Shown piece after piece: positions 8,556-31,990 of a stretch of DNA of 64,000 bases. The notes under the pieces were generated by a model. The model was not told where the DNA came from, ran no database searches, and was given only the letters and a program-made list of their open reading frames with translations. Position 1 is the first letter of the stretch. Every line of letters starts with the position of its first letter. Origin of the DNA: Methylobacterium organophilum (lineage in GTDB: Bacteria; Pseudomonadota; Alphaproteobacteria; Rhizobiales; Beijerinckiaceae). The stretch is from the NCBI RefSeq assembly GCF_022179465.1, contig NZ_BPQV01000015.1, forward strand, positions 62,001-126,000, written 5' to 3'. A program made the position numbers and the translations under genes.

Positions 8556-9320
8556 TCAGACGAAGGTGTTGGTGAGGATGCCGATCCCGTCGATCGCGAC
8601 CTCGACGGTCGCGCCCTTCGGGATCGGGCCGGAGCCGATCGAGGTGCCGCAGGCGATCACGTCCCCGGGCTCGAGGGTCATGCCCTGGGAGAGCATCGAG
8701 ACGAGCCGGGCCGCGGGGAAGATCATGTCCGACACCGGGTAGTTCTGCCGTTCGCGCCCGTTGACCAGGGTGCGCACGGTCAGCGTGGCGGGGTCGAGAC
8801 CGGTGGCGATCACCGGGCCGAAGGGGCCGAAGCCGTCGAGTCCCTTGGAACGGCACCACTGGGCGAAGCTCGGATCCGCCTTGAGGATGGGCAGGGCGGT
8901 GACGTCGTTCACGCAGGTATAGCCGAAGATATGCGCGACGGCCTCCGCCTCCGTCACGTCGCGGGCGGCCTTGCCGATCACGATGCCGAGCTCGCCCTCG
9001 TAGAGCGCCCGGCCCGCGGCCTCCGGCACGGGGATGGCGGCGCCGGACGCGGCGTAGCTGTTGGCGGGCTTGAGCAGGAACAGGGGCGCCTCGGGGATCG
9101 CCAGTTCCTGCTTCTCCGCCATCGCCCGGAAGTTGTTCCAGAGCGCGATGAACTTGGAGGGCCGGCAGGGCAGGCCGACGGTCACCTCGGCGAGATCGAG
9201 GACGGCGCCGGTCGGCACGGGCGTGCCGAACAGGTCGCCCTCGTGCACCGCGATCCGCGTGCCGTCGAGGCGGCCGAACCCGGCCGCCCCGTCCCGTGTG
9301 AAGCCGATCCAGTGGGCCAT
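8556..9320 (-). CDS. Fumarylacetoacetate hydrolase (FAH) family protein
   Basis: A 254-residue soluble enzyme of the FAH fold, whose members hydrolyse or decarboxylate beta-dicarbonyl and 2-oxo acids at a divalent metal. Metal-ligand acids are seen in LYEGELGIVIGK and in FGYTCVNDVTA; the C-terminal GDVIACGTSIGSG loop is typical. It starts at ATG 9320, 4 nt after the antiporter stop, so it is co-transcribed with the oxalate genes. Its substrate is unknown. An oxaloacetate decarboxylase or acylpyruvase activity would make sense beside oxalate metabolism, but nothing in the sequence proves it. Confidence 0.85.
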   Translation of the reverse strand: MAHWIGFTRDGAAGFGRLDGTRIAVHEGDLFGTPVPTGAVLDLAEVTVGLPCRPSKFIALWNNFRAMAEKQELAIPEAPLFLLKPANSYAASGAAIPVPEAAGRALYEGELGIVIGKAARDVTEAEAVAHIFGYTCVNDVTALPILKADPSFAQWCRSKGLDGFGPFGPVIATGLDPATLTVRTLVNGRERQNYPVSDMIFPAARLVSMLSQGMTLEPGDVIACGTSIGSGPIPKGATVEVAIDGIGILTNTFV

Positions 9321-19844: not shown

Positions 19845-21056
19845 CTACGACATCCAGCTTGGAAGCCGAAATGCTCCGGTTCGATAAGGGTCAGGAGCGA
19901 TCAAGACCTGATCAGCGGTGTGGTCCTGAATTTGGAAGAAGAGATGCGGCATTCCAAGTGATGGATCGCTGACGACGTTCGGATACGGAATGGCGGATTG
20001 GGTCGCGACATCGTATCGGATCGTGCCGACGACGCTCCGATAGATCGTGCGCCGGAGGCGCGCGGCCACGCGCCGGTTCTGCTCGAAATGACCGGGAGGA
20101 GCCGTCCCTCCTTCGAGCGCCGCGGCGATCGCGTAATGGTGCAGAGCGACATAGGTCTGCGCGCCGACGCTCGGCGTCGAGCTGGCACCGAAGCGCGCCC
20201 GATAGCGTTGCGCGAAGGCGTTGCCCATCGCGTCGGGCAGCAGGCCGACGACCGTGCCGACGATGATCCCTTCGGCCGAGCGGCCGGTCGCGGCCGTGAA
20301 CGCCTCGTGCATGGCGCCATACTGAAGATAGACGAGGGCCGGGATCGGGGCACGCATGAACTGCTGGTGGAAGGCCGCGAGATCGCCGGCGAAGAAATGG
20401 GTGTTGGCGATCACGTCGGGACGGCTGTCCCGGAGCAGGGAGAGGGCCTGCGACCAGTCGGTGCGCGGCGTGCGCACGACTTTCGGACCACAGCAGATCT
20501 CCCAGCCGAACTGGGGGGCCGCGGCCGCCATCGCGTTGGCGATGACGATGCTGTAGGGCGCCGAGCCCGAGATGATGGCGATGCGGTTGCTTGCAGGACG
20601 CCACTGGCCGGTCTCTCTCAGCCAGGAGATAAATTTGATGAAGCCTTGTCCGTACCAGTACTCGGCTGGATCGCTCATGAAGCAACCGAAATACCGTTCC
20701 GGGTTCGAGGTGACGGTGTCGTGGTGCTGCAGCAGAGTGTTGTGGTGAATGTAAAGGATGCCGGCATCGGCGATCGGTTCGTATTCCGAGTTCTGTGGGC
20801 CGATGTTGTATCCGCAGATGATCGCGTGGACGCGGTGAAGGTGGATCAGCACTTGCGCGCCGGCCATAACCGCCTCGGCGTTCTGGCGACCCGTGTCGAC
20901 GAAGACCGGGGCGACCGGGCGGCCAAGGATGCCGCCGGCGGCGTTGATCTCCTCGCTGGCCAGGATCAGCCCGTTGCGAAACTCGATACCGTCGGCGGAT
21001 GAGGCGCCGGTGAGCGGCACCAGGCTGCCGATGGGGATCGGAGCGGACGCGCTCAT
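19845..21056 (-). CDS. Signal-less substrate-binding-like sensor protein (AmiC/UrtA type)
   Basis: A 403-residue type I periplasmic-binding fold of the amide/urea branch (Peripla_BP family). It has no signal peptide: the fold starts at once (PIPIGSLVPLTG). It shares EINAAGGILGRP, VYLQYG and AEG(I/F)-type segments with the exported binding protein at 23790, so the two look paralogous. It is last in an operon after a hybrid kinase and a response regulator, with a 4-nt overlap with the kinase. Cytoplasmic relatives such as AmiC act as ligand sensors. I infer that it senses an amide and modulates the kinase or regulator. It could alternatively be a binding protein that lost its export signal. Confidence 0.8.
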   Translation of the reverse strand: MSASAPIPIGSLVPLTGASSADGIEFRNGLILASEEINAAGGILGRPVAPVFVDTGRQNAEAVMAGAQVLIHLHRVHAIICGYNIGPQNSEYEPIADAGILYIHHNTLLQHHDTVTSNPERYFGCFMSDPAEYWYGQGFIKFISWLRETGQWRPASNRIAIISGSAPYSIVIANAMAAAAPQFGWEICCGPKVVRTPRTDWSQALSLLRDSRPDVIANTHFFAGDLAAFHQQFMRAPIPALVYLQYGAMHEAFTAATGRSAEGIIVGTVVGLLPDAMGNAFAQRYRARFGASSTPSVGAQTYVALHHYAIAAALEGGTAPPGHFEQNRRVAARLRRTIYRSVVGTIRYDVATQSAIPYPNVVSDPSLGMPHLFFQIQDHTADQVLIAPDPYRTGAFRLPSWMS

Positions 21057-22642
21057 CGCTCGCCTCCTTGGTTGGATAGCGGCTCCGCCGAGAGCGAATC
21101 GGTGGTCTCGTACAGGAGACGGTGCATGAGGACCCGCAGGCGCGGCGGGCTGATCGGCTTCGTCAGGACCGGGAAGCCGAGGTCTCGGATTCGGGCGTGG
21201 CTCTCCGCGTCGGCGTCGGCCGTCACGATCACGCAGGGCAGGTCCGCCCCGAGATGGGCGCGCAGCCGGGTGCAGACCTCGGTGCCGCGCTCATGTCCCG
21301 ACAGCCGGTAGTCCGAGAGGACAAGGAGCGGCTCCAGCGCCCCGCTTACGATCGCCGCCTCGACCTCGGCAAGGCGGGCGCAGGCGGTCACCTCCATGCC
21401 CCAGCGCTGGAGCAGCCCGGTCAGTACGCGGCGCAGATCCGCGTCGTCCTCGATGACGAGCACGGGCAGGCCGGCGAACTGCCCGGCCAGCATCTCGCTG
21501 ATCTCGGTCTCCGCTACCTCGCTCTGCCAGACGTCGCCGAGCGGCACCTGGATCGAGAAGGTCGAGCCTTCCCCGAGCCGGCTCTCCAGCAGGATGGGGT
21601 GGCCGGCCAGCTCACTGATGCGCTTGGCGATGCTGAGCCCAAGGCCGAGCCGCTTGCGCTGACCGTCTTCCGCCCGCCCGATCCGGTAGAACTCCTCGAA
21701 GATGCGCTCCTGTTCGTCCGGCGCGATGCCTGGGCCGGTGTCGCGGACTTCGATCCGGCAATGGGTCCCCTCGCTCACACAAGCGACGGTTACGCGGCCG
21801 ACAGGCGTGTAGGTGATCGCGTTCGCGACGAGGTTGGCAAGCACACGCTCAAGGAGGGCCTTGTCGGTGACGATGGGGAGCGCACAGGGCAGCACGTCGA
21901 GGATCAGGCCCTTCTCCCGGGCGAGCGGCTCGAACTGGATGCGCAGGCGGTCCAGCAGGGCGGAGGCGGGGAAGGTGGCCTTGCGCGGCACGATGTTGCC
22001 GGCATCGAGCTGACCGATATGCAGGAGCGCGCGGATGAGATCCTCCATGACCTCCACCGACACGTCCATGGCGTGCAGCGCTTCGCGGCGCGCCGCCTCG
22101 TCGCTCAGCGACAGACACGTGTAGATCAGGATCTTGAGGGTCGCGAGCGGCTGACGCAGATCGTGGTTGGCGGCGCGCAGGAAGCGCGACTTCGTCAGGT
22201 TGGCGGTCTCCGCAAGGTCCCTGGCGGCCTGCAAGGCGCGCTCGCCGCGCTTCAGGCGGGTAATGTCCTGCACCGACAGGACGAGCCGCCCGACCTCATC
22301 CCGGCTTGGCAGGAACTCCAGGACGCGTCCGTCGGCCATCGGCACCTCTCGAGCCTCCTCGCGCCAGACTGCGGCAGCGAGGTCCGCGGCCCAATCCCGA
22401 GGCTTGGTCTCGACTACAGCCTCGTGGGTTCGAGCGAGCGCCGACAGAAATGCGCCGAGTGTCTCTCCCGGTGAGAGGGTTTTCGACACCCGATCGAACA
22501 TGGCCTTGAGCCGTCCATTGGCGGCAATCAGCCGCCCGTCACGCGCGAACACCGCAAGGCCGAAATGAGCGCCCTGCAGCGCCCCCCAAATCGTATTGAG
22601 GTCGATCGGCGACAATGGAGCCGGGGCAGGGGCATCGCTCAC
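21053..22642 (-). CDS. Soluble PAS hybrid histidine kinase with receiver
   Basis: A 529-residue cytoplasmic kinase without membrane helices. A PAS-like domain (about 17-130) ends in a short coiled linker. The HisKA box is RAANHDLRQPLATL with H160. The HATPase has ANLVANAITYTP, DTGPGIAP and GLGLSIAKRI. The C-terminal receiver (about 390-515) has DD near 398, phosphoacceptor D444 in LSDYRLSG and K in LTKPIS. It overlaps the response regulator (22639) and the sensor protein (21056) by 4 nt each, so all three are translationally coupled. The signal probably comes from the soluble binding-like protein or from the PAS domain. Confidence 0.92.
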   Translation of the reverse strand: MSDAPAPAPLSPIDLNTIWGALQGAHFGLAVFARDGRLIAANGRLKAMFDRVSKTLSPGETLGAFLSALARTHEAVVETKPRDWAADLAAAVWREEAREVPMADGRVLEFLPSRDEVGRLVLSVQDITRLKRGERALQAARDLAETANLTKSRFLRAANHDLRQPLATLKILIYTCLSLSDEAARREALHAMDVSVEVMEDLIRALLHIGQLDAGNIVPRKATFPASALLDRLRIQFEPLAREKGLILDVLPCALPIVTDKALLERVLANLVANAITYTPVGRVTVACVSEGTHCRIEVRDTGPGIAPDEQERIFEEFYRIGRAEDGQRKRLGLGLSIAKRISELAGHPILLESRLGEGSTFSIQVPLGDVWQSEVAETEISEMLAGQFAGLPVLVIEDDADLRRVLTGLLQRWGMEVTACARLAEVEAAIVSGALEPLLVLSDYRLSGHERGTEVCTRLRAHLGADLPCVIVTADADAESHARIRDLGFPVLTKPISPPRLRVLMHRLLYETTDSLSAEPLSNQGGER

Positions 22643-23304
22643 GGGACCCCGCCATCCGGTGAGCGGATTCCACCGTTTCGCAGCTGCGTCACCGCATAAT
22701 GCATCAGCGCCGAGCGATCCTCGACACCCAGCTTCTTCATGATGCGCGTGACGTGGACGCGGACCGTGTGCGGGCTGAGCCCGAGGTCGCCGGCGATGCG
22801 CGCGATCGAGCGTCCGCGGCCGAGGAGCGCGACGACCTCGACCTCGCGCCGGGTGAGGGCGGCTTTCTCCATTGCCGGAGCCTCTCCGGAGGCGGGCTGC
22901 ATCGGTCCGCCCTCCAGGATGCGGCGCGGAAACGAAACCTGTCCCGACAGGACGAGAGAGAGCGCCGTCACGATCTCCTCCGGCTTGGCGGATTTCGGAA
23001 TGTAGCCGACGGCGCCGAGCTGGATCGCCCGCATGATCCGCTCACGGTCCTCATGCACCGAGATGACGACGATCGGCACGTCGGGATGGCGCCGCCGCAG
23101 GTGCTCGATCTCGCCGTCCCCGCGTATGCCTGGCATGACGAGGTCGATCAGGAGGAGGCCGATGTCGTCGCGGGCGCGCAAATGTGTCTCGACCTCGGTG
23201 AACGTGGCCGCCTCGATCACCTCGATGTCGCCCTGCACGCTGCGCAGGACCTGCTTCAGGGTCTCCCGCACGATCCAATGATCGTCGGCCACCACCACGC
23301 GCAT
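22639..23304 (-). CDS. NarL/FixJ-type response regulator
   Basis: A 221-residue regulator with an N-terminal receiver (VVVADDHWIVRE, phosphoacceptor D54 in LLIDLVMPG, K in YIPKSAKP) and a C-terminal LuxR-type HTH (LTRREVEVVALLGRGRSIAR, LGLSPHTVRVHVTRIMKKLG). The start is taken as ATG 23304, with AGGGAGG about 8 nt upstream; the frame is open 12 codons further but without better signals. It is first in the sensing operon and divergent from the transporter genes, so the 485-nt region between is its likely target. Confidence 0.92.
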   Translation of the reverse strand: MRVVVADDHWIVRETLKQVLRSVQGDIEVIEAATFTEVETHLRARDDIGLLLIDLVMPGIRGDGEIEHLRRRHPDVPIVVISVHEDRERIMRAIQLGAVGYIPKSAKPEEIVTALSLVLSGQVSFPRRILEGGPMQPASGEAPAMEKAALTRREVEVVALLGRGRSIARIAGDLGLSPHTVRVHVTRIMKKLGVEDRSALMHYAVTQLRNGGIRSPDGGVP

Positions 23305-23789
23305 CGTCCCGCACCTCCCTTGCTGCGAAGCTTCGTCCAACCGCGCCTCTCGGAACTTGCATAGTCCGGATGCGGCGATCGGGCGACCGTTGATCCGGAA
23401 TCGGTTCCCGAGTCCGGCCTACGCCTCGTTAGAAGGCGATTCGCCAGCGAGTAATCAATTTGATTATATCACATGGCGGCGAACGTCCAGCTTAACTACG
23501 AAGCACGCGTTCAACCGCTGCAGGAGATTGGCATCGTCGCCTCTCAGAAATCACCTTTTATAACAGCATATTAGTGCCGAGACTGGCGTCCGTGCGCCGG
23601 ACCTGAAGGCGGCGCCGATTTGGGCAATTTGCCTAATTATTCTCGCCAAAAAATTTTTCCTGACAGGAATTGACACGTAGCCATAAAGATTATCCCATGT
23701 GTAAATCAGGAGCGGGTTTTCGCGGCGAACAACGCCCGAAGACAGCACCCTTTTTCCGGCGACGCGCTGGATATTTCCGGAGGTTTTCG
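23305..23789. other. Divergent control region of the amide/DMF locus
   Basis: A 485-nt gap with no convincing gene, clearly more AT-rich than its surroundings. It separates the sensor operon (-) from the transporter-DMFase operon (+). Inverted repeats include GGCAA-T-TTGCC near 23622-23632 and TTCCTG-A-CAGGAA at 23657-23669. A TTGACA follows at 23670-23675. Confidence 0.6.
23657..23675 (+). promoter_or_regulatory. Palindrome overlapping a candidate -35 box
   Basis: The 13-bp palindrome TTCCTGACAGGAA (23657-23669) is followed directly by TTGACA (23670-23675), a consensus -35. The best -10 is only a weak TATCCC about 15 nt downstream. This would place an operator immediately upstream of a weak, activator-dependent promoter for the transporter operon. 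Confidence 0.4.
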
Positions 23790-25091
23790 ATGAAGGATCG
23801 TACCGTCGACCGCAGACAGGTGGTGCAGGGCTTGGCGGCAGGCGCCGCGCTTGCCGCGGGCGGGGCGGGTCTCGCCTCCGCCGTCATCCCGGCTCCCGCC
23901 ATCGCCAAGCCGTCCGGTGAGCCGATCGTCCTCGGGCTGACGATCTCGCAGACCGCGGCCGCGGGCGTCGCCGACCATCAGGATCACTTCAACGGCTCGA
24001 CGCTGGCGATGGAGGAGATCAACGCGGCCGGCGGCATCCTCGGCCGGCCGCTCCAGTTCAAGGTCGTCGATGTCGATCTTCTCAACGCCGAGAGCTGCCA
24101 AGCGGCGATCCGCAGCCTCGTGGACCAGAAGGTCCACGCCATCTCCTCGCCGTTCCTGTTCGTCCCCATCCCGGCCATGGACGCCTCGGTGGCGTATGGC
24201 TGTCCCTACGTGAACGGCAACACCCAGCGCGCCGCCACCGATCTCACGGCGGCGCACCCTGACAAGTACGGCCATATCTTCCAGATGGACCCGTCTGAGG
24301 TCTATTACGGCGAAACCTTCCCGATCTTTCTCCAGGATCTCGAGAAGAGCGGCGCCTGGAAGCCGAAGAACAACAAGGTCCACATCGTCCAAGAGCAGAT
24401 CGCCTACAATCAAACGATCTCGCGCTCGTGTCAGGAGGCACTCAAGAAGAGCCGCTTCGAACTCGCCGCGGTCACCGACATCCAGTACCCCGTCCAGGAT
24501 TGGGGGCCGGTCATCCAGAAGATCAAGGAGGTCGGCGCCGGTACCGTGATGATCGACCACTGGGTCGCCGCCGAGTACGCCGCCTTCGTCAAGCAGTTCC
24601 GCTCCAATCCTCTGAAGGACAGCCTCGTCTATCTCCAGTACGGCCCCTCGCAACCGGAGTTCCTCGAACTCGCCGGGCGTGCCGCGGAAGGTTTCGTCTG
24701 GAGCACCGTGCTCGGCGTCTATGCCGACGAGAAGGGCAAGGCGTTCCGCGAGAAGTACAAGAAGCGCTTCCCCGGCAAGGTCATGGGCCTGTGCTACACC
24801 GGCGCCGGCTACGACATTGTCCACATGATGAAGGACGTCTGGGAGAAGACCGGCAAGCCGGAAGACTTCAAGGCGAACTGCACGGCACTGCGCGAAGGCG
24901 CGTTTCGGGGCGTCTGCGGCTGGTCGCTTATGGGCAACAAGCGCCAGGAGGCGGTGCAGTACCCGGTCGGGACGCAGGACATCGAGAAGGGCATGAGCCA
25001 GCTCTATTTCCAGGTCCAGAGCCGGGAGAGCAAGATCATCTATCCCTTCGCGCTCAAGGAGACCGAATACAAGACAGTGCCTTGGGCTTGA
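23790..25091 (+). CDS. ABC transporter substrate-binding protein, amide/urea type
   Basis: A 433-residue exported binding protein. The start is ATG 23790, with GGAGG 7 nt upstream. The N-terminus has a twin-arginine-like signal (DRRQVVQGLAAG, hydrophobic stretch, then PAPAIAK). The mature part is a two-lobed type I fold of the UrtA/FmdD/AmiC group, with EEINAAGGILGRPLQFKV and VYLQYGPSQPEF. It should deliver ligand to the LivH/LivM-like permeases encoded downstream. With dimethylformamidase in the same operon the ligand is plausibly a formamide or short amide, but this is not shown by the sequence. Confidence 0.9.
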   Translation: MKDRTVDRRQVVQGLAAGAALAAGGAGLASAVIPAPAIAKPSGEPIVLGLTISQTAAAGVADHQDHFNGSTLAMEEINAAGGILGRPLQFKVVDVDLLNAESCQAAIRSLVDQKVHAISSPFLFVPIPAMDASVAYGCPYVNGNTQRAATDLTAAHPDKYGHIFQMDPSEVYYGETFPIFLQDLEKSGAWKPKNNKVHIVQEQIAYNQTISRSCQEALKKSRFELAAVTDIQYPVQDWGPVIQKIKEVGAGTVMIDHWVAAEYAAFVKQFRSNPLKDSLVYLQYGPSQPEFLELAGRAAEGFVWSTVLGVYADEKGKAFREKYKKRFPGKVMGLCYTGAGYDIVHMMKDVWEKTGKPEDFKANCTALREGAFRGVCGWSLMGNKRQEAVQYPVGTQDIEKGMSQLYFQVQSRESKIIYPFALKETEYKTVPWA

Positions 25092-25100
25092 GACCCGGAC

Positions 25101-25886
25101 ATGAGGGCTGAAGTCATGGATATCGCAGGCAGCGGCTCCGCAGGGATCGATGTCGGCGCAGCGCTCTTCGCCTGCACGGACATCGCTCTCGACCTTGGCG
25201 GGCGGGAGATCCTGAAAGGCATCTCGCTCTCCGTCGCACCGGGCGAGGTGCTCGGCATCATCGGCCCGAACGGGGCGGGCAAGACCAGCCTGTTCGAGGT
25301 GCTAAGCGGGCGCACCGCACCCAAGCGCGGGCGCGTCACCTTCGAGGGGCGCGACATCACCGGGCTGAAACTCTACGAGCGGGCGCGGATCGGCATCGGC
25401 CGCACCTACCAGACCCCCGTCGTGCCCGAGGATCTCACGGTCGGCGAAGTCCTGAAGGGCGCCCGGCAAGCCTATACGCCCTACCTGACCCGCCACCACG
25501 CCGAATGGGGCCTGGAACTCGTCCATCTCGGCGTGGACGAAGCCATGCCGGCGAGCCGGCTGGAGACATTGAACCGGCGCAAGCTGCTTCTCGCCTGCCT
25601 GCTTATGCGCCGGCCCAAGCTGCTGCTGCTCGACGAGCCGGCGGCGGGACTCATCAACGCCGAAGTCGACGAGCTCGACCACCTGATCCGCCTCCTCTCG
25701 AAGGAGATGGGCATGTCGATCGTAATCGTGGAGCACCGGATCGAGCTCCTCGAGACCATCGCCGATCGCGTCATGGTGATGGATGCGGGCGAAAAGGTCG
25801 TCGAGGGGAGTCTGTCGACGGTGTTGGCCGATCCCCGCGTCCACGCCGCATATTTCGAGCAGGTTGAGGAGGGCGAGCTGACATGA
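25101..25886 (+). CDS. ABC transporter ATPase, LivG-like
   Basis: A 261-residue ATPase of the branched-chain/urea/amide ABC family. Walker A is GPNGAGKTS (about residues 54-62), Walker B LLLLDEPAAGL, and the H-loop is in IVIVEHRIELL. The signature region is odd: where LSxGQ is expected the protein reads LETLNRRKLLLACLL, so the canonical serine and glycines are absent. ATG 25116 is an alternative start. The stop overlaps the next ATPase gene by 4 nt. Confidence 0.88.
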   Translation: MRAEVMDIAGSGSAGIDVGAALFACTDIALDLGGREILKGISLSVAPGEVLGIIGPNGAGKTSLFEVLSGRTAPKRGRVTFEGRDITGLKLYERARIGIGRTYQTPVVPEDLTVGEVLKGARQAYTPYLTRHHAEWGLELVHLGVDEAMPASRLETLNRRKLLLACLLMRRPKLLLLDEPAAGLINAEVDELDHLIRLLSKEMGMSIVIVEHRIELLETIADRVMVMDAGEKVVEGSLSTVLADPRVHAAYFEQVEEGELT

Positions 25887-26644
25887 TCGGCTTCCTGGCA
25901 CGACGACGTCCCCCCGAACCCGAAACCGACGGATCCATCCTCGCGATCCGCGGCCTCTCGGCCGGCTACGGCCCGATGCGAGTGATCCACGATCTCGACC
26001 TGATCGTGCGGCCCGGCGAGCGCCTCGGCATCGTCGGCCTCAACGGCCACGGCAAGTCGACGTTGTTCCTGGCCATCGCCGGCTTGACCGGCTGGCAGCG
26101 GGGGTCGATCCGCCTCAACGGCCGCGAGGTCGGCGGTTCGCGCAGCCAGGGACCGGGCCGCTACACCCATCACGTCGTACGTCAGGGCCTCGCCCTGATG
26201 CCGCAGGGCGATGAGATCTTCCACGGTCTCACCGTCGAGGAACATCTCGACAGCGGTGCCTTCACGCCGCGCTCCTGGCGGGAGCGGGGCCCGCGCAAGG
26301 AGCGGGTGCTGGCGATCTTCCCGCCGCTGCGCAAGCTGATGGGCACGCCGGTCGGACGCCTCTCGGGCGGCGAGCGGCGCATGGTCTCCCTCGGGCGCGG
26401 GCTGATGGCCGACGCCTCGCTGTTCCTCGTCGACGAGCCCTCCCTCGGCCTCGCCCCGAAGATCGGCAAGGGCGTGATGGATGCGCTGATGGGGCTGGAG
26501 CTCGGCCGCTCGGCCATGGTCATCGCCGAGCAGAACGTGGCGCTCCTCGAAGGTCGGGTCGACCGCATCCTCGGCATGCATGTCGGCCAACTCAAGGGCG
26601 AGGCCTCGACCTCGCTCGCATCGCAGACCAAGCGCGAGCTGTGA
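25883..26644 (+). CDS. ABC transporter ATPase, LivF-like
   Basis: A 253-residue ATPase with Walker A GLNGHGKST, Q-loop LMPQGDEIF, intact signature LSGGERRMV and Walker B LFLVDEPSLGLAP. It would pair with the LivG-like ATPase; because the latter lacks a normal signature motif, only one of the two composite ATP sites may be fully active. It starts inside the end of the preceding gene and is followed 7 nt later by the first permease gene. Confidence 0.9.
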   Translation: MIGFLARRRPPEPETDGSILAIRGLSAGYGPMRVIHDLDLIVRPGERLGIVGLNGHGKSTLFLAIAGLTGWQRGSIRLNGREVGGSRSQGPGRYTHHVVRQGLALMPQGDEIFHGLTVEEHLDSGAFTPRSWRERGPRKERVLAIFPPLRKLMGTPVGRLSGGERRMVSLGRGLMADASLFLVDEPSLGLAPKIGKGVMDALMGLELGRSAMVIAEQNVALLEGRVDRILGMHVGQLKGEASTSLASQTKREL

Positions 26645-26651
26645 GGTCACC

Positions 26652-27563
26652 GTGGATATCGGGTTCGTCATCGTCTCGGCCGTCACGCTGGCTTGCGTCT
26701 ACGGCACGCTGGCCATCGGCCTCTCCATCACGTGGTCGAGTCTCGGCCTCGTCAACATGGCCTACGGCGTCACTTTCGCGGCGGCCGGCTACGGCGCGTG
26801 GCTCGTCGCCGAACAGTTGCAGGCGCTCGATGCTCTCGCCGACATGACGCTCGTCGTCGGCCCCGTGGTCATCCTCGCCGGCATCCTTACCGGCGCCGTT
26901 TGCGGCCTGATCGTCTGTGCGATCGCCTTCATCCCGATCCACGACAAGCCGAACTTCACCGTTCGCGGGCTGATCGCGAGCCTGGCGCTGAGCCTGATCG
27001 GCACGCAGCTCCTGCTCCAGGTCTTCGGCCCGCGCGCCAAGAACTTGCCGCCCCTGTTCGGGGATTGGGAGCTGCCGCTCGGCAACGTCGTCGTCACAGC
27101 CGACAAGGGCGGCGCCATGGTGACCTCGGTCGTGATGCTGGCGCTGGCGCTCCGCTGGATGCGATCGAGCCGGCGCGGCCTCGAAATTCGCGCCATGATG
27201 ATGAACCCGCACGCCGCCTCCCTCGTCGGCATCGGCGTCCGGCGCACCGGCTTCTACGTGATGGCGCTGACGGGAGGGCTGGCCGGACTGGCCTCGGTGC
27301 TCCTGTCGCAGACCTACTTCATCAGCCCATTCAGCGGCCTCACGCCGCTCATCAAGGGCTTGAGCGTGGCGCTGCTGGGCGGCCTCGGTAGCGTTGGCGG
27401 GGCAATCGCCGCCGCGATCCTTCTCGGTGTCAACGAGGCGCTGACCTCGGCCCTGCTCGGCGGACAATACGTCCTGATCACACAGTTCCTCCTCATCATC
27501 CTCGTTCTGCTGGTCCGCCCCCGCGGAATCGCGGGCATCCTCGACAAGGCGCGGGAGGCATGA
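26652..27563 (+). CDS. ABC transporter permease, LivH-like
   Basis: A 303-residue inner-membrane permease with about eight helices. The start is GTG 26652, preceded by GTGAGGTCACC; the upstream in-frame extension overlaps the ATPase gene and lacks homology. Family features are GLSITWSSLGLVNMAYG at the first helices, and SGLTPLIKGLSVALLGGLGS near residue 240, the EAA-like coupling segment. The stop overlaps the LivM-like gene (ATGA). Confidence 0.9.
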   Translation: MDIGFVIVSAVTLACVYGTLAIGLSITWSSLGLVNMAYGVTFAAAGYGAWLVAEQLQALDALADMTLVVGPVVILAGILTGAVCGLIVCAIAFIPIHDKPNFTVRGLIASLALSLIGTQLLLQVFGPRAKNLPPLFGDWELPLGNVVVTADKGGAMVTSVVMLALALRWMRSSRRGLEIRAMMMNPHAASLVGIGVRRTGFYVMALTGGLAGLASVLLSQTYFISPFSGLTPLIKGLSVALLGGLGSVGGAIAAAILLGVNEALTSALLGGQYVLITQFLLIILVLLVRPRGIAGILDKAREA

Positions 27564-29203
27564 CCATGGGCGAAGTCTGGAAGAACCCGCTCACTCCCTG
27601 GCGGGGCGACGCGGAGCCTGCGGAAGCGGCGAGCGATCCCTGGCGGGATCCGGGTGAGGTCTGGCGCGCCAAGCGTGCCTCCCATGTAAAGATGCACAAG
27701 GTCGGGCGCCTGCGCTACTTTTGGAAAGCGCAGGGCCATGGCGAGCGGACCTGGAACCGCCTTCGCTACTGGCCGACCAGGCGACGCGTGCTCGACATCC
27801 GCGGCGAGTACAACCCGAAGATCCTCCGGCGCGAGAAGACGATCCTCGACCGCCGCCCGATCTACTGGGCGCTCAGCTTCCTCGCCATCCTGCTCGCGCC
27901 GTTGGTCGTTCCCGGCGACCTGCAATCGACGCTGATCAGTGCCGGCACGGTGTTCCTGATCTACGCGGCGATCAACCTCTGCTGGACGCTGATTATCGGC
28001 ACCGCCGGCATCTTCTCGCTGGCGACGATGGCGGTCGTCGGCGCGGCGGCCTACGGCGCGGCGGCGATGTCGGTCTTCTATGGCTGGCCCTGGTGGACGC
28101 TGCCCTTTGTCGGCGCCGGCATCGGCCTCGTCTTCGGGGTGGTGATCGCCCTGCCCGCGACCCGCCTCGACGGCTTCTACTACGCGCTGCTGACGCTCGG
28201 CCTGAACGAGCTGTGCCGGGTCTACGTGGTGCAGTCGCGCACCTTCGGCTCGGCGACCGGCGGCCTTTACGGGGCGGATTCCTTCATCCCGACGGGGCTC
28301 TCCCCCTTCGGAGAACTCGCCACCGGTTACTACGGGGCCTTCGCCCTGATGCTCGCGGCTCTCGCGCTGTTCCGGTTCGTCCACGGCAAGCGCCTCGGCC
28401 GCATCCTGCGGATGGCGCCGGAGAAGCGGGAGGCCTTCGCCCAGGCCGTCGGGATCGACTACCGGGCCGCGCGCATCCAGGTCTTCATCCTGTCCTCGGT
28501 GGCACTCGGGCTGATTGGCGGCTTCTACGCCTCCTACTTTCGAGGCGCCTCGCCCTCGCTGTTCTCCTTCGACGCGGTGCTGCTTGGCCTCGCCATGCTG
28601 GTGATCGGCGGCATCGGCCGCTCGGAAGGGGCGGTCGCGGGCACCTTCATCGTCATCCTGATCGACAAGGTCTTCCTGTCCCTCGGGCCGATCCGCCTGA
28701 TCGTCATCGGCCTGATCATGCTGGGTGTGGTGCTGTTCCTCAAGAATGGACTCTTCGGGATCAAGCAGCAGTTCCGCGCCTGGCGGAACAAGAAGAAGAG
28801 TGAAAACCGCTCTTCGCGAGCGGAGAAAGGCGGAGAGATGCTTCCGGAAGAGGCCACCGAGACCGAGGACAAGGATCTCATCTACGCACGTCGCTTCGAC
28901 AAGATGCAGCGTGATTACTTGAAGACAATCGTCTCCGAGCGGCTGATCGAAGAGCACCAGCGCAATCCGCTCGGACAGCACAGTGAGCCGCTCGAGCGCC
29001 TGCTCATGTACTTCCGGCGCCAGCCGCAGGTCGACAAGTACGCGATCACCGTGATCGAGCCGTTCAAGGCCTATCGGATCGTGGCCCTGTCCGGCCACCG
29101 CGGCGTCGCTCCCCGCCTCGTCGAAGAGAAAACCTACGCCACCGAGACCGAGGCTTACCACGCCGTGTTCCTGCGCCGCGTGCAAGATCTGCTCGAGTCC
29201 TAG
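27560..29203 (+). CDS. LivM-like permease fused in frame to dimethylformamidase small subunit
   Basis: 547 residues, far longer than a normal LivM (about 330). Residues 1-95 are a hydrophilic, Arg/Trp-rich N-terminal extension of unknown role. Residues about 100-415 form the permease, with GIFSLATMAVVGAAAYGAA, ATRLDGFYYALLTLGLNE and LVIGGIGRSEGAVAGT. Residues 427-547 match the DMFase small subunit DmfA1 as I recall it: NPLGQHS, YFRRQPQVDKYAI, AYRIVALSGH and TEAYHAVFLRRVQD. dmfA2 follows 36 nt later. No stop separates the two modules, although a TGA lies one frame away at the junction (AAGAAGAAGAGTGA). The fusion would tether the amidase to the importer. A sequencing indel is the main alternative. 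Confidence 0.85.
   Translation: MTMGEVWKNPLTPWRGDAEPAEAASDPWRDPGEVWRAKRASHVKMHKVGRLRYFWKAQGHGERTWNRLRYWPTRRRVLDIRGEYNPKILRREKTILDRRPIYWALSFLAILLAPLVVPGDLQSTLISAGTVFLIYAAINLCWTLIIGTAGIFSLATMAVVGAAAYGAAAMSVFYGWPWWTLPFVGAGIGLVFGVVIALPATRLDGFYYALLTLGLNELCRVYVVQSRTFGSATGGLYGADSFIPTGLSPFGELATGYYGAFALMLAALALFRFVHGKRLGRILRMAPEKREAFAQAVGIDYRAARIQVFILSSVALGLIGGFYASYFRGASPSLFSFDAVLLGLAMLVIGGIGRSEGAVAGTFIVILIDKVFLSLGPIRLIVIGLIMLGVVLFLKNGLFGIKQQFRAWRNKKKSENRSSRAEKGGEMLPEEATETEDKDLIYARRFDKMQRDYLKTIVSERLIEEHQRNPLGQHSEPLERLLMYFRRQPQVDKYAITVIEPFKAYRIVALSGHRGVAPRLVEEKTYATETEAYHAVFLRRVQDLLES
28838..29203 (+). other. dmfA1: DmfA1 module with possible internal start
   Basis: In-frame ATG 28838 with AAAGG at 28826-28830 (7 nt spacing) could start a free 121-residue small subunit. 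That is close to the roughly 130 residues of known DmfA1. The locus could thus make both fused and free forms. Part of the 547-residue reading frame described above. Confidence 0.55.
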
Positions 29204-29239
29204 GACTGGGTTCCCCATAATCCGCGACAGGAAAGCCCG

Positions 29240-31558
29240 ATGTCTCAAGTCAAGCTGTTCGGCTACACGGATCGCATTTCTGCCAAGCCCGGCGAGCGCA
29301 TCGATGTTCACGTCAACGCCGACGGTACGGATACGGCGGAAGCCCAGCTCGTGCGCCTCGTTCACGGCGACGCCCATCCCTCGGGGCCGGGCTATATCGA
29401 GGAGGAAATCGCCTGCGAAGCGAACGGGCTCTGGAAGGTCTGGAAGCAGTACACGCAGGTCGGCTCCTTCCTGCGCGTCGCCGATCCGGACCAACGCCTC
29501 GCGCCGGAGGGCAGCTTCACGGTCTTTACGTATCTCTGGTCGACGCTGCCGACGGTGGGTCTGCGCCAGTCCCTTGTCGGACGGTGGGACATCCGCTCGA
29601 ACAAGGGCTTCGGCTTCGGCATCAACCGCAAGGGCTTCCTCGAGTTCTGGGTCGGTGATGGTAGCGAGGTCGACTACGTCGCCGCCGAGGCGCCCCTCGT
29701 CGCACGCATTTGGTACTTCGTCGCCGTCTCCTACGATGCCCGCACGGGCCGTGCCGAGATCTTCCAGGAGCCCGTCGTCAACCGCTACAACTCCCTCCTC
29801 GGCAAGGTCGTGCCGATGGACTACCGCTCCCACGTCGCCGAGACCCTCCGGTTCCGCCCCCGGCACGATCCGCAGACCCCCTTCCTGATCGCCGGCGCGC
29901 AGGACTGGCACGAGGCGCGCGGCCATTTCGTCGGTCAGTGCTTCTGCGGCAAGCTCGACCGCCCCGGACTGTACGGACGGGCTTTGAGCCGTGGCGAGAT
30001 GGCCGCCCTCCAGGCCGGGCAGCGCCCCGCCGATGGTCTCCTCGCCTTCTGGGACACGACCGCCGGCTACACCGAGCGCGGCATCGGCGACACGGTGATC
30101 GACACCGGCCCGCACGGCCTCGACGCGGTCGGCTACAACCGACCGGTCCGCGCCCAGACCGGCTACAATTGGAACGGCCGCAACGACTGCTTCCGCCTCG
30201 CTCCAGAGGAGTATGGCGGCGTCGAGTTCCACGTCGACACCATGATCGACAGCAACTGGGGCGTGACGCGGACACTGACGCTGCCCGACAACTTGAAGAG
30301 CGGCGCCTACGCGATCCGCCTGCGGGCGGGTCCTGGCCGGGGACTCGCCGAGGAATACGTCGTGTTCTTCGTGCGCGCCAAGGTACCGAAGGCGCCGGTT
30401 GCCTTCCTGATCCCGACGGGCAGCTATCTCGCCTACGCCAACGAGCATCTGAGCTTCGACGCGCAGATCATCCAGCCGATGACCGGCCAACCACCGATCG
30501 TCGACGAGATCGACATCGAGATGTACAAGAACCCGGATTTCGGGCTCTCGACCTACGACAGCTACGAGGACGGGGCTGGCGTCTGCTTCAGCTCCTTCCG
30601 CCGGCCGATCCTGAACATGCGGCCCAAATACCGCATGTCGAGCATGGGCACGACGTGGCAGTTTCCGGCGGACCTCTCCGTCATCGCCTGGCTCGACCAG
30701 TCCGGCTTCGACTACGAGGTTCTGACCGAACAGGACGTGCACCTGGAGGGGCTCGCGGCCCTGAAGCCGTACCGCTGCGTCCTCTCGGGCACGCATCCCG
30801 AATATGTCTCCGAGCGCATCCTCGACGCCACCGAGGACTTCATCGCCGAGGGCGGCCGGTTCATCTACATGGGCGGCAACGGCTACTACTGGAACGTCGC
30901 CTACCGTGACGATGAGCCGTGGATCATGGAGGTTCGCAAGCTCGACTCCGGCATGCGTGCCTGGGCGGCGCGCCCCGGCGAGCACTACCTCCAGACGACC
31001 GGCGACAAGAGCGGCCTGTGGCGCAATCGCGGCCGCCCGCCCCAGAAGACACTCGGCGTTGGCTTCATCGGCGAGGGGTTCGAGAGCGGCAAGCCGTTCC
31101 GCCGCATGCCGGACAGCTATCATCGCACCGTGTCTTGGATCACGGAGGGGATCGAGGGCGAGATCATCGGCGATTTCGGCCTCGCGCAGGGCGGTGCGGC
31201 GGGACTGGAACTCGATCGGTACGACCTCAAGCTCGGCACCCCGCCGCACGCCAAGATCATCGCGTCTTCGGGCGGCCACACCGACAATTACGTGCTGTCG
31301 GTCGAAGAGGTGCTCTACGCCTATCCGGGCATGACCGGGACGCAGGATTACCGCATCCGGGCGGACATGGTGTTCTTCACCGCGCCGAACGGCGGCGCCG
31401 TGTTCTCGGCAAGCTCGATCGCCTTCGGCCAAGCCCTCCCCGTCGACGGCTTCAAGAACTCGGTTGCCAAGCTCCTCACGAACGTGGTCGGCGCCTTCGC
31501 GAAGAACGGTCCGATTCCGGGTGAAGCCTGGATCTCCGACGAGAAGCAATGGCGATAG
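29240..31558 (+). CDS. dmfA2: N,N-dimethylformamidase large subunit
   Basis: A 772-residue cytoplasmic enzyme hydrolysing N,N-dimethylformamide to dimethylamine and formate with the small subunit. AGGA lies 7 nt before ATG 29240. The N-terminal part (about 90-280) is a concanavalin/LamG-like beta domain. The C-terminal half is the DMFase catalytic domain with a mononuclear iron held by two Tyr and one Glu in the Paracoccus enzyme. Matching candidates here are Y399 (SYLAYAN), Y439 (STYDSYEDG) and E521 (GTHPEYVS). Length and motifs fit known DmfA2. The true substrate may be another N-substituted formamide. It ends the transporter operon, beside the right end of the island. Confidence 0.92.
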   Translation: MSQVKLFGYTDRISAKPGERIDVHVNADGTDTAEAQLVRLVHGDAHPSGPGYIEEEIACEANGLWKVWKQYTQVGSFLRVADPDQRLAPEGSFTVFTYLWSTLPTVGLRQSLVGRWDIRSNKGFGFGINRKGFLEFWVGDGSEVDYVAAEAPLVARIWYFVAVSYDARTGRAEIFQEPVVNRYNSLLGKVVPMDYRSHVAETLRFRPRHDPQTPFLIAGAQDWHEARGHFVGQCFCGKLDRPGLYGRALSRGEMAALQAGQRPADGLLAFWDTTAGYTERGIGDTVIDTGPHGLDAVGYNRPVRAQTGYNWNGRNDCFRLAPEEYGGVEFHVDTMIDSNWGVTRTLTLPDNLKSGAYAIRLRAGPGRGLAEEYVVFFVRAKVPKAPVAFLIPTGSYLAYANEHLSFDAQIIQPMTGQPPIVDEIDIEMYKNPDFGLSTYDSYEDGAGVCFSSFRRPILNMRPKYRMSSMGTTWQFPADLSVIAWLDQSGFDYEVLTEQDVHLEGLAALKPYRCVLSGTHPEYVSERILDATEDFIAEGGRFIYMGGNGYYWNVAYRDDEPWIMEVRKLDSGMRAWAARPGEHYLQTTGDKSGLWRNRGRPPQKTLGVGFIGEGFESGKPFRRMPDSYHRTVSWITEGIEGEIIGDFGLAQGGAAGLELDRYDLKLGTPPHAKIIASSGGHTDNYVLSVEEVLYAYPGMTGTQDYRIRADMVFFTAPNGGAVFSASSIAFGQALPVDGFKNSVAKLLTNVVGAFAKNGPIPGEAWISDEKQWR

Positions 31559-31607
31559 ACCGGAACAGGGATCAGGGTCATTCCGCTTCCTGCAGGAACA
31601 GGATCGA

Positions 31608-31990
31608 ACATTGCGTCATCGATCCTGAGATGAGACGCAGTGGCTATCCGTGTGAGCAGGAGGCGGGGGTGGCGACCGCGGAGGTTTGCCGGAAGCACGG
31701 CGTCAGCTCGGCCACGTTTTACAAATGGAAGGCCAGGTTCGGCGGGCTCGAGGTCTCGGATGCGCGGCGTCTCAAGGAGCTCGAGGACGAGAACGGCCGG
31801 CTGAAGGAGGCTGGCCGACGCCATGCTCGACAACGCCGCGCTGAAGGATCTTTTAGGGAAAAAAGTGGTGACGCCCGCCGCCAGACGGGAGGCCGTGGCG
31901 TATCTCGCCGCGACCTTCGACATGAGCGAGCGGCGGGCGTGCCGGGGAGGCGGCGTGGATCGGCCAAATGCGTCGCATGAAGTCCCGAAA
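31608..31990 (+). pseudogene. IS3-family (IS407-like) OrfA remnant, frameshifted
   Basis: One frame reads EQEAGVATAEVCRKHGVSSA, FYKWKARFGGLEVSDARRLK and ELEDENGRLKE. After an apparent 2-nt loss near 31810 the homology continues in another frame with MLDNAALKDLLGKKVVTP and ATFDMSERRACR, into the start of OrfB, then breaks off about 80 nt before the right tRNA repeat. It differs from the remnant at the left end, so these are not two ends of one composite transposon. Confidence 0.8.

Follow-up and report, generated by a model that had tools for sequence, protein, structure and literature searches.

The window analyzed here is a stretch of 64,000 nucleotides from Methylobacterium organophilum (contig NZ_BPQV01000015.1, positions 62,001 to 126,000), and its positions are counted from its first letter. 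It contains an operon in which a LivM-like permease of an ATP-binding cassette (ABC) importer continues, within one open reading frame (ORF), into a tail resembling DmfA1, the small subunit of dimethylformamidase (DMFase), followed by dmfA2 for the large subunit. Codon choice and messenger RNA (mRNA) openness at the junction suggest that this gene probably yields DmfA1 in both a tethered and a free form. The features of the locus, all on the forward (+) strand, are as follows.

23670..25091 (+): substrate-binding protein of the importer (Peripla_BP_6; Pfam); likely start about 23790 by eye
25101..25886 (+): importer ATPase 1 (ABC_tran, Pfam; LivG-like by place)
25883..26644 (+): importer ATPase 2 (ABC_tran, Pfam; LivF-like by place)
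26580..27563 (+): LivH/UrtB-like permease (Pfam, NCBIfam)
27560..29203 (+): LivM-like permease with DmfA1-like tail in a single frame, ATG start, 547 aa (ORF, Pfam, structure-sequence match)
28772..28879 (+): positively charged conserved linker, residues 405–440 (alignment)
28823..28837 (+): GAGAAAGGCGGAGAG, residues 422–426, Shine-Dalgarno-like A-rich codons just 5' of the internal ATG (codon choice, mRNA openness)
28838..29203 (+): internal start ATG (residue 427) and predicted free DmfA1, 121 aa (homology, start-site signature)
29240..31558 (+): dmfA2, DMFase large (catalytic) subunit, 772 aa (Pfam, 6lvb_A match, active-site residues)

The fused gene and its operon

The permease family BPD_transp_2 (PF02653, E 2.2e-24) covers residues 130–391 of the 547-residue fusion, and the tail (residues 427–547) has no match among Pfam families. 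According to Pfam the operon runs substrate-binding protein, ATPase, ATPase, permease, permease, with BPD_transp_2 in both permeases. As the first four of these genes lie upstream of the fusion and both DMFase subunits were matched, the operon comprises, judged from its sequence, all parts of a LivFGHMK/urea-type importer together with a DMFase. Like the operons of LivFGHMK and UrtABCDE importers, it combines a substrate-binding protein with a pair of ATPases and a pair of BPD_transp_2 permeases, but its LivM-like protein differs from theirs by an N-terminal stretch of about 98 residues and by the DmfA1 tail. The N-terminal stretch precedes the first hydrophobic segment (window 27560–27853), is partly conserved and matches no Pfam family. 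The NCBIfam models matched by the operon are Liv and Urt ones, all below cut-off, and the fused permease misses the curated LivM and UrtC cut-offs (60.8 of 366 bits and 46.2 of 296.2 bits, respectively). A hydropathy cut on this permease yielded segments that overlap, and its membrane helices could not be counted cleanly. The gene of a related LivM-type permease, which extends past the permease match, carries the annotation (annotation only) of an ATP-binding protein. Because an ATPase is annotated at that same end, and in view of the charged linker, the DmfA1-like tail should face the cytoplasm. DmfA2 has no signal peptide by eye and so should be cytoplasmic as well.

A preliminary description of this DNA had reported an uninterrupted frame from permease into tail, a set of motifs within the tail, and dmfA2 36 nt downstream. 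The frame indeed runs without a stop from 27560 to 29203, the motifs are present, and dmfA2 lies at the given distance (29240–31558). Absent from that description was that residue 427 is itself an ATG codon (28838), preceded by GAGAAAGGCGGAGAG.

The DMFase small subunit 6lvb_B was the single match of the tail among solved structures (E 9.8e-14, tail residues 14–118), which bears out the proposed similarity to DmfA1 and rules out an unrelated domain. An alignment of four fused tails with the solved small subunit has 126 columns, of which 23 do not vary. The tail is by homology a DMFase small subunit, its fold and its binding of DmfA2 being predicted. The DmfA2 product matches 6lvb_A over residues 2–760 (E 2.2e-179), and its Y399, Y439, H519, E521 and N547 occupy the known active-site places (the 2-Tyr-1-Glu iron site plus His519); the same five letters are found in 78 of 84 DmfA2-like proteins from the window and from fused and unfused loci. 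The available text of PMC7686228 names the active-site residues of the Paracoccus enzyme 6lvb, N547 in a figure legend. The two systems have homologous small and large subunits and keep the iron ligands and catalytic His. In Paracoccus, however, the small subunit is a polypeptide of its own, 132 residues long; in the window it forms the C-terminal end of a permease and is, very probably, also translated from an internal start. Homology does not fix the substrate, since the N-acetyl-(R)-beta-phenylalanine acylase 8huy is also a relative of DmfA2. The host genome holds one match to the tail and one to DMFA2_C, both at E ≤ 0.001.

Distribution of the fusion

The same architecture was sought in other genomes, as had been proposed, by scanning one genome per species with a tail alignment of four fused rows and one free row; 83 loci were confirmed and 80 kept. 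The tail was fused in frame to a LivM-type permease in 68 of the 80 loci, a ratio biased to fusions because the query alignment consisted mostly of fused rows. No permease was found in the other 12, among them L085, which is cut by a contig end. Of 72 fused loci (68 from genomes and 4 from plasmids), 70 have DmfA2 downstream, and the other two are cut by contig ends. Plasmid records matched by tblastn numbered 399; 26 of them (H1–H26) span 99–100% of the fusion in one piece at 59.6–66.1% identity. Their hosts are Rhizobium, Agrobacterium, Aminobacter and Ensifer, with 19 of the 26 being A. tumefaciens records of equal identity. The fusion is annotated as a branched-chain amino acid permease in 24 of the 26, two having no annotation there, and the four records that were opened are all typed conjugative. 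With the frame intact in these relatives (68 of 80 genome loci and 26 plasmid records), a sequencing or assembly artefact at the junction has practically no probability left and was ruled out.

Fused loci occur in Alpha-, Beta- and Gammaproteobacteria, SAR11 and Actinobacteria. Methylotrophic hosts include Methylobacterium, Methylopila, Methylocella, Hyphomicrobium, Methylobacillus and Methyloversatilis; others are Bradyrhizobium, Rhodopseudomonas, beta- and gammaproteobacterial metagenome-assembled genomes and two Pelagibacteraceae (SAR11) assemblies. In Methylobacterium jeotgali the gene lies on contig L008. Fifteen contigs with the fusion are of actinobacterial type, including one (L068) labelled only 'uncultured bacterium'. 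The labels Klebsiella (L030) and Oceanobacillus (L060) conflict with placement in the tree, and these two may be mislabelled or contaminated. The spread is patchy: 2 of 37 genomes of the window's genus have the fusion, and DmfA1-like genes (cut-offs 1e-20 or 1e-18, centre genomes included) were found in 4/385 genomes of the window's class, 18/391 of the family of G070, 9/399 of the order of G083, 11/85 of the family of G099, 5/69 of the family of G071 and 1/197 of the family of G092.

In L091 a DmfA1-like match (E 1.1e-35) sits in a 483-codon frame without a permease match; this frame may have been called too long or may represent a further fusion. A second dmfA2 lies near a free dmfA1 in L044, L045, L055 and L059 (ORF starts at 9191, 9234, 9120 and 3487, respectively) and encodes Cys for the second iron-binding Tyr, and a second dmfA2 in L004 has Ala for the Glu ligand; these proteins are possibly altered or non-catalytic partners.

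Codon choice and mRNA openness at the junction

The junction was compared in 73 rows, made up of the 68 genome loci, 4 plasmid loci and the window. The linker (27 codons, −18 to +8 of the junction) had the lowest nonsynonymous divergence (pN) of three gene parts in 15 of 17 pairs. A peptide near RAEKGGEMLPEEATE is kept in proteobacterial rows, and EKGGE of the linker also in those where no start follows. Residue 427 is an ATG in 46 of the 73 rows. The KGG peptide is present in 44 ATG rows. In 39 of these Lys423 is encoded by AAA, against 8.2 expected from the codon usage of the individual genes; GGAG is found in 36 (7.0 expected) and GGCGGC in none (19.4 expected). Among 15 Lys columns in these rows the skew is greatest at 423, and among 39 Gly columns at 424. 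The 12 rows with the same peptide and no ATG, by comparison, have AAA in 4 (2.4 expected), GGAG in 3 (2.1) and GGCGGC in 8 (5.1). The codon skew was reached in 0 of 20,000 draws, a P value that overstates the evidence because the rows are related. Where residue 427 is Val or Ile and there is no local free copy, codon 428 is ATG or GTG and is preceded by similar codons: L049 and L050 have GTG behind AAAGGAGGCGAG and were counted as start-bearing, and a Val427 clade (L090, L109, L110, L114 and L115) has ATG behind AAAGG(A/G)GG or AAGGGGGG. Actinobacterial rows have neither ATG nor GTG at 427/428; L067 and L072 have TTG at 428, and initiation of an unusual kind might occur in the actinobacterial rows.

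Openness of the mRNA was assessed from the folding energy of 66 bases at the junction relative to recodings with each gene's own codon usage. Over all rows, the mean folding z was +1.82 in 55 start-bearing rows (L114 and L115 included), −1.00 in 6 rows with ATG and a free copy, −0.76 in 13 rows with a free copy and no ATG, and −0.25 in 15 actinobacterial rows; random places in the same genes gave −0.21 to −0.62. The start signature consists of codon choice plus openness, and strong Shine-Dalgarno pairing is not part of it in every row.

Fusions that lack this signature proved, in the genome search, to be adjoined by a second, free dmfA1. The free match starts 39–63 nt past the fusion stop in L003, L048, L051, L052, L054, L058 and L060, and about 2.4 kb past it, beyond dmfA2, in L055, L059, L044 and L045, of which the last two retain the ATG behind the codons AAG GGC GGG. 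A free dmfA1 was present in the locus in 0 of 46 rows with start and signature (L015, L030 and L047 among them having under 2.4 kb downstream) vs 11 of 12 rows without signature; in the twelfth, L057, the contig ends 55 nt after the fusion. These 12 rows differ from the 12 no-ATG rows of the codon count by including L044 and L045 and leaving out L049 and L050. In the family of G070, fusions with a free copy have AAG GGC GGC or AAG GGT GGT even with Met427 (L102, L106–L108), and L103 and L104 combine Ala427 with a tandem free copy.

Dereplication at 85% reduced 109 rows to 43 lineages: 27 with no free copy seen (none in the locus, or none at cut-off in the genome for loci from the genome search), 8 with a free copy and 8 actinobacterial. 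L015, in the set of 27, is cut soon after the fusion, and truncated rows such as L054 and L059 are absent from the dereplicated set. An ATG or GTG at 427/428 occurs in 27/27, 3/8 and 0/8 of these lineages, respectively. Treating lineages as independent, codon 423 is AAA in 23 of 27 lineages with no free copy seen vs 2 of 8 with one (Fisher 0.0028), GGCGGC occurs in 0 of 27 vs 5 of 8 (Fisher 1.7e-4), and folding z averages +1.62 (24 of 27 above zero) vs −0.85 (1 of 8 above zero; Mann-Whitney p 1.9e-6); the 8 actinobacterial lineages average +0.16. When openness was scanned at 64 positions, one every 8 codons along the gene, the junction ranked 1 of 64 over 23 of the 27 lineages (1.97, against an all-position mean of −0.32 and sd of 0.47), L007, L090, L151 and L152 lying outside the scan; in 10 free-copy rows (the 8 lineages plus L105 and L106) it ranked 60 of 64.

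The fused tail is under purifying selection in free-copy lineages as well, with a ratio of nonsynonymous to synonymous divergence (pN/pS) of 0.04–0.38 in 9 pairs. Because the tail is constrained despite the free copy, and 9 of 10 actinobacterial genomes searched, from the group without the start, have only a fused DmfA1, the tether does not appear to be a relic.

Proposed tethered and free forms of the small subunit

The best explanation, and in our judgement a probable one, is that the gene yields both tethered DmfA1 and a free form of 121 residues, with the amidase docked on the amide importer. The free form is very probably made, since start, codon choice and openness are kept where the locus showed no separate dmfA1 and are mostly lost where there is one. 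For the Paracoccus DMFase, the accessible part of PMC7686228 describes a large subunit that is inactive alone, an α2β2 enzyme or its dimer, and a small subunit that probably stabilises the large one and whose N-terminal helix wedges between large subunits. In the proposed mechanism, the operon would encode a LivFGHMK/urea-type ABC importer for a small amide together with an iron-dependent DMFase-type amidase, and the LivM permease would end on the cytoplasmic side in the conserved linker and the DmfA1 small subunit. As DmfA2 binds DmfA1, it would dock on the importer through the fused copy, and the amide may be split on arrival. Ribosomes would also start at codon 427 (or 428), giving free DmfA1 in most of the proteobacterial lineages examined, the window included. 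This free subunit might fill the second small-subunit place of the α2β2 enzyme, which would need it because there is one LivM per importer, or feed a soluble pool. Many of the hosts being methylotrophs, the substrate may be a formamide-like or methylated amide. It is an even question, in our estimate, whether the ratio of full-length to internal initiation sets the number of active sites at the channel. On that account the start was traded for a free gene at least twice, the 8 free-copy lineages having at least 2 origins, and the tether was kept, as if both pools were needed.

Several observations weigh against this proposal. The duplex energy with the anti-Shine-Dalgarno sequence is −7.4 in the window, vs −8.9 in the synonymous-recoding null (p 0.885), and averages −10.2 in the 46 ATG rows, vs −9.0 in the null, with p 0.05 reached in 9 of 46; strong Shine-Dalgarno pairing, being weak overall and absent in the window's own row, accordingly did not serve as the chief evidence for an internal start. 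On a permease-only tree, signature loss and free-copy presence each need 2 changes. It gives 2 independent pairs (L057, L015, L047 and L030 left aside), and both agree; the sign test gives p 0.5, and the lineage p values above are overstated because the switch is independent only 2 times. This tree predates the rows added by later genome searches, has L066, L059 and L061 on long branches and includes L054, L059 and L069 as short rows. The protein alignments A3 and A4, which fed no count, were made without 5 contig-cut fusion rows, L015 and L017. SAR11 falls inside the free-copy clade yet is start-bearing. The start-bearing genomes G073 and G077 have divergent free DmfA1-like genes elsewhere (E 2.3e-25 and 2.1e-30), G078 and G080 have a start-bearing fusion plus a second fusion with its own free copy, and many start-bearing genomes hold weak DmfA1 matches elsewhere (about 1e-6 to 1e-12). 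The start-bearing L114 and L115 come from genomes with a free copy elsewhere. In L044, L045, L055 and L059 the free copies about 2.4 kb away precede the second dmfA2, with Cys at the second iron Tyr, and may serve that enzyme because they sit beside it. Finally, both the internal start and a local free copy are missing from actinobacterial rows, so some lineages do without free DmfA1; in 9 of the 10 actinobacterial genomes searched, the fused DmfA1 is the only one at E ≤ 0.001.

The preliminary description had treated the tethered form as the sole form. The fusion is real, widespread and under purifying selection, and to that extent the idea stands, but the internal start signature makes free DmfA1 very probable too. 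Were the 547-residue fusion nevertheless the only product, the odd junction codons might slow the ribosome so that the permease inserts before DmfA1 folds; rare codons at a domain boundary past the last membrane segment fit such pausing, as does the lack of an ATG or GTG at the site in actinobacterial rows. Ordinary codons and mRNA that is not open at the same boundary in lineages with free dmfA1, together with start codons in every lineage with no free copy seen, make this improbable. It is very improbable that the fusion is a relic of merged genes, its useful product being the internally started DmfA1 and the long protein merely tolerated. The start-site signature would suit this view, but purifying selection on the fused tail beside a separate dmfA1, the actinobacterial rows without start (with no other DmfA1 match in 9 of 10 genomes) and the EKGGE peptide kept in proteobacterial rows lacking a start all speak against it.

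Regulatory domains occur at the ends of importer subunits. The tail could accordingly be a regulator that gates the importer in response to enzyme or substrate and holds no active DmfA2, binding of DmfA2 by the fused tail being predicted only. We consider this unlikely, if with some chance of being correct, given the 23 of 126 alignment columns in which four fused tails and the solved small subunit all agree, and the dmfA2 gene downstream of all fused loci but the two that are contig-cut.

Transporter-enzyme fusions and internal starts for small subunits are already known as kinds. Felce and Saier (2004) is reportedly the cited reference for fusions of SulP transporters with carbonic anhydrase. 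As far as the available text of PMC6458275 goes, these likewise place a transporter and the enzyme for its substrate in one chain, but there the catalytic enzyme is fused, and here its non-catalytic partner subunit, with an internal start in addition. Cas11, made from an internal start in cas8/cas10 (PMC11899642, in the portion accessible), is likewise a small subunit that occurs both as the end of a large protein and alone; the proteins and the role are different, the large product here is a membrane permease, and a separate gene replaces the start in some lineages. No report of a permease-DmfA1 fusion was found in literature on dimethylformamidase or dmfA1 (including PMC4543880 and PMC11381386, as partial texts), transporter-enzyme fusions and internal starts, nor any paper on dimethylformamidase together with an ABC transporter, most subscription papers being outside the scope of both searches. 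The accessible part of PMC10308929 places a DMFase gene near rhodopsins of aquatic bacteria and mentions no fusion.

If dual output is true, the enzyme could be present at the importer and also unattached in the cell. A physical link between import and catabolism has, to our knowledge, often been proposed and rarely been fixed in a gene; this gene provides it within a single chain, and does so in two phyla. The natural variants (fusion without start, with internal start, and with a separate gene) are ready controls for the effect of the tether on the use of scarce or toxic amides. The finding also indicates that SAR11 and actinobacteria use amides in ways not yet characterised.

Clustering of neighbours revealed few recurrent genes beyond the operon, and many long minus-strand frames look like shadows of real genes. 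Divergent to the operon, window 19845–23340 (−) encodes a hybrid PAS histidine kinase, a LuxR-type response regulator and a Peripla_BP_6 protein that by eye has no signal peptide; the set resembles a cytoplasmic amide sensor of the AmiC kind that feeds a two-component system. Just past dmfA2, window 31549–31977 (+) holds a transposase helix-turn-helix (HTH) fragment (PF01527), a sign of mobility. In six actinobacterial-type loci (L061, L062, L065, L067, L069 and L073) a histone-deacetylase-family gene (PF00850 checked in L062 only) lies 3' of dmfA2, which hints at an acylated amine or amide as the substrate.

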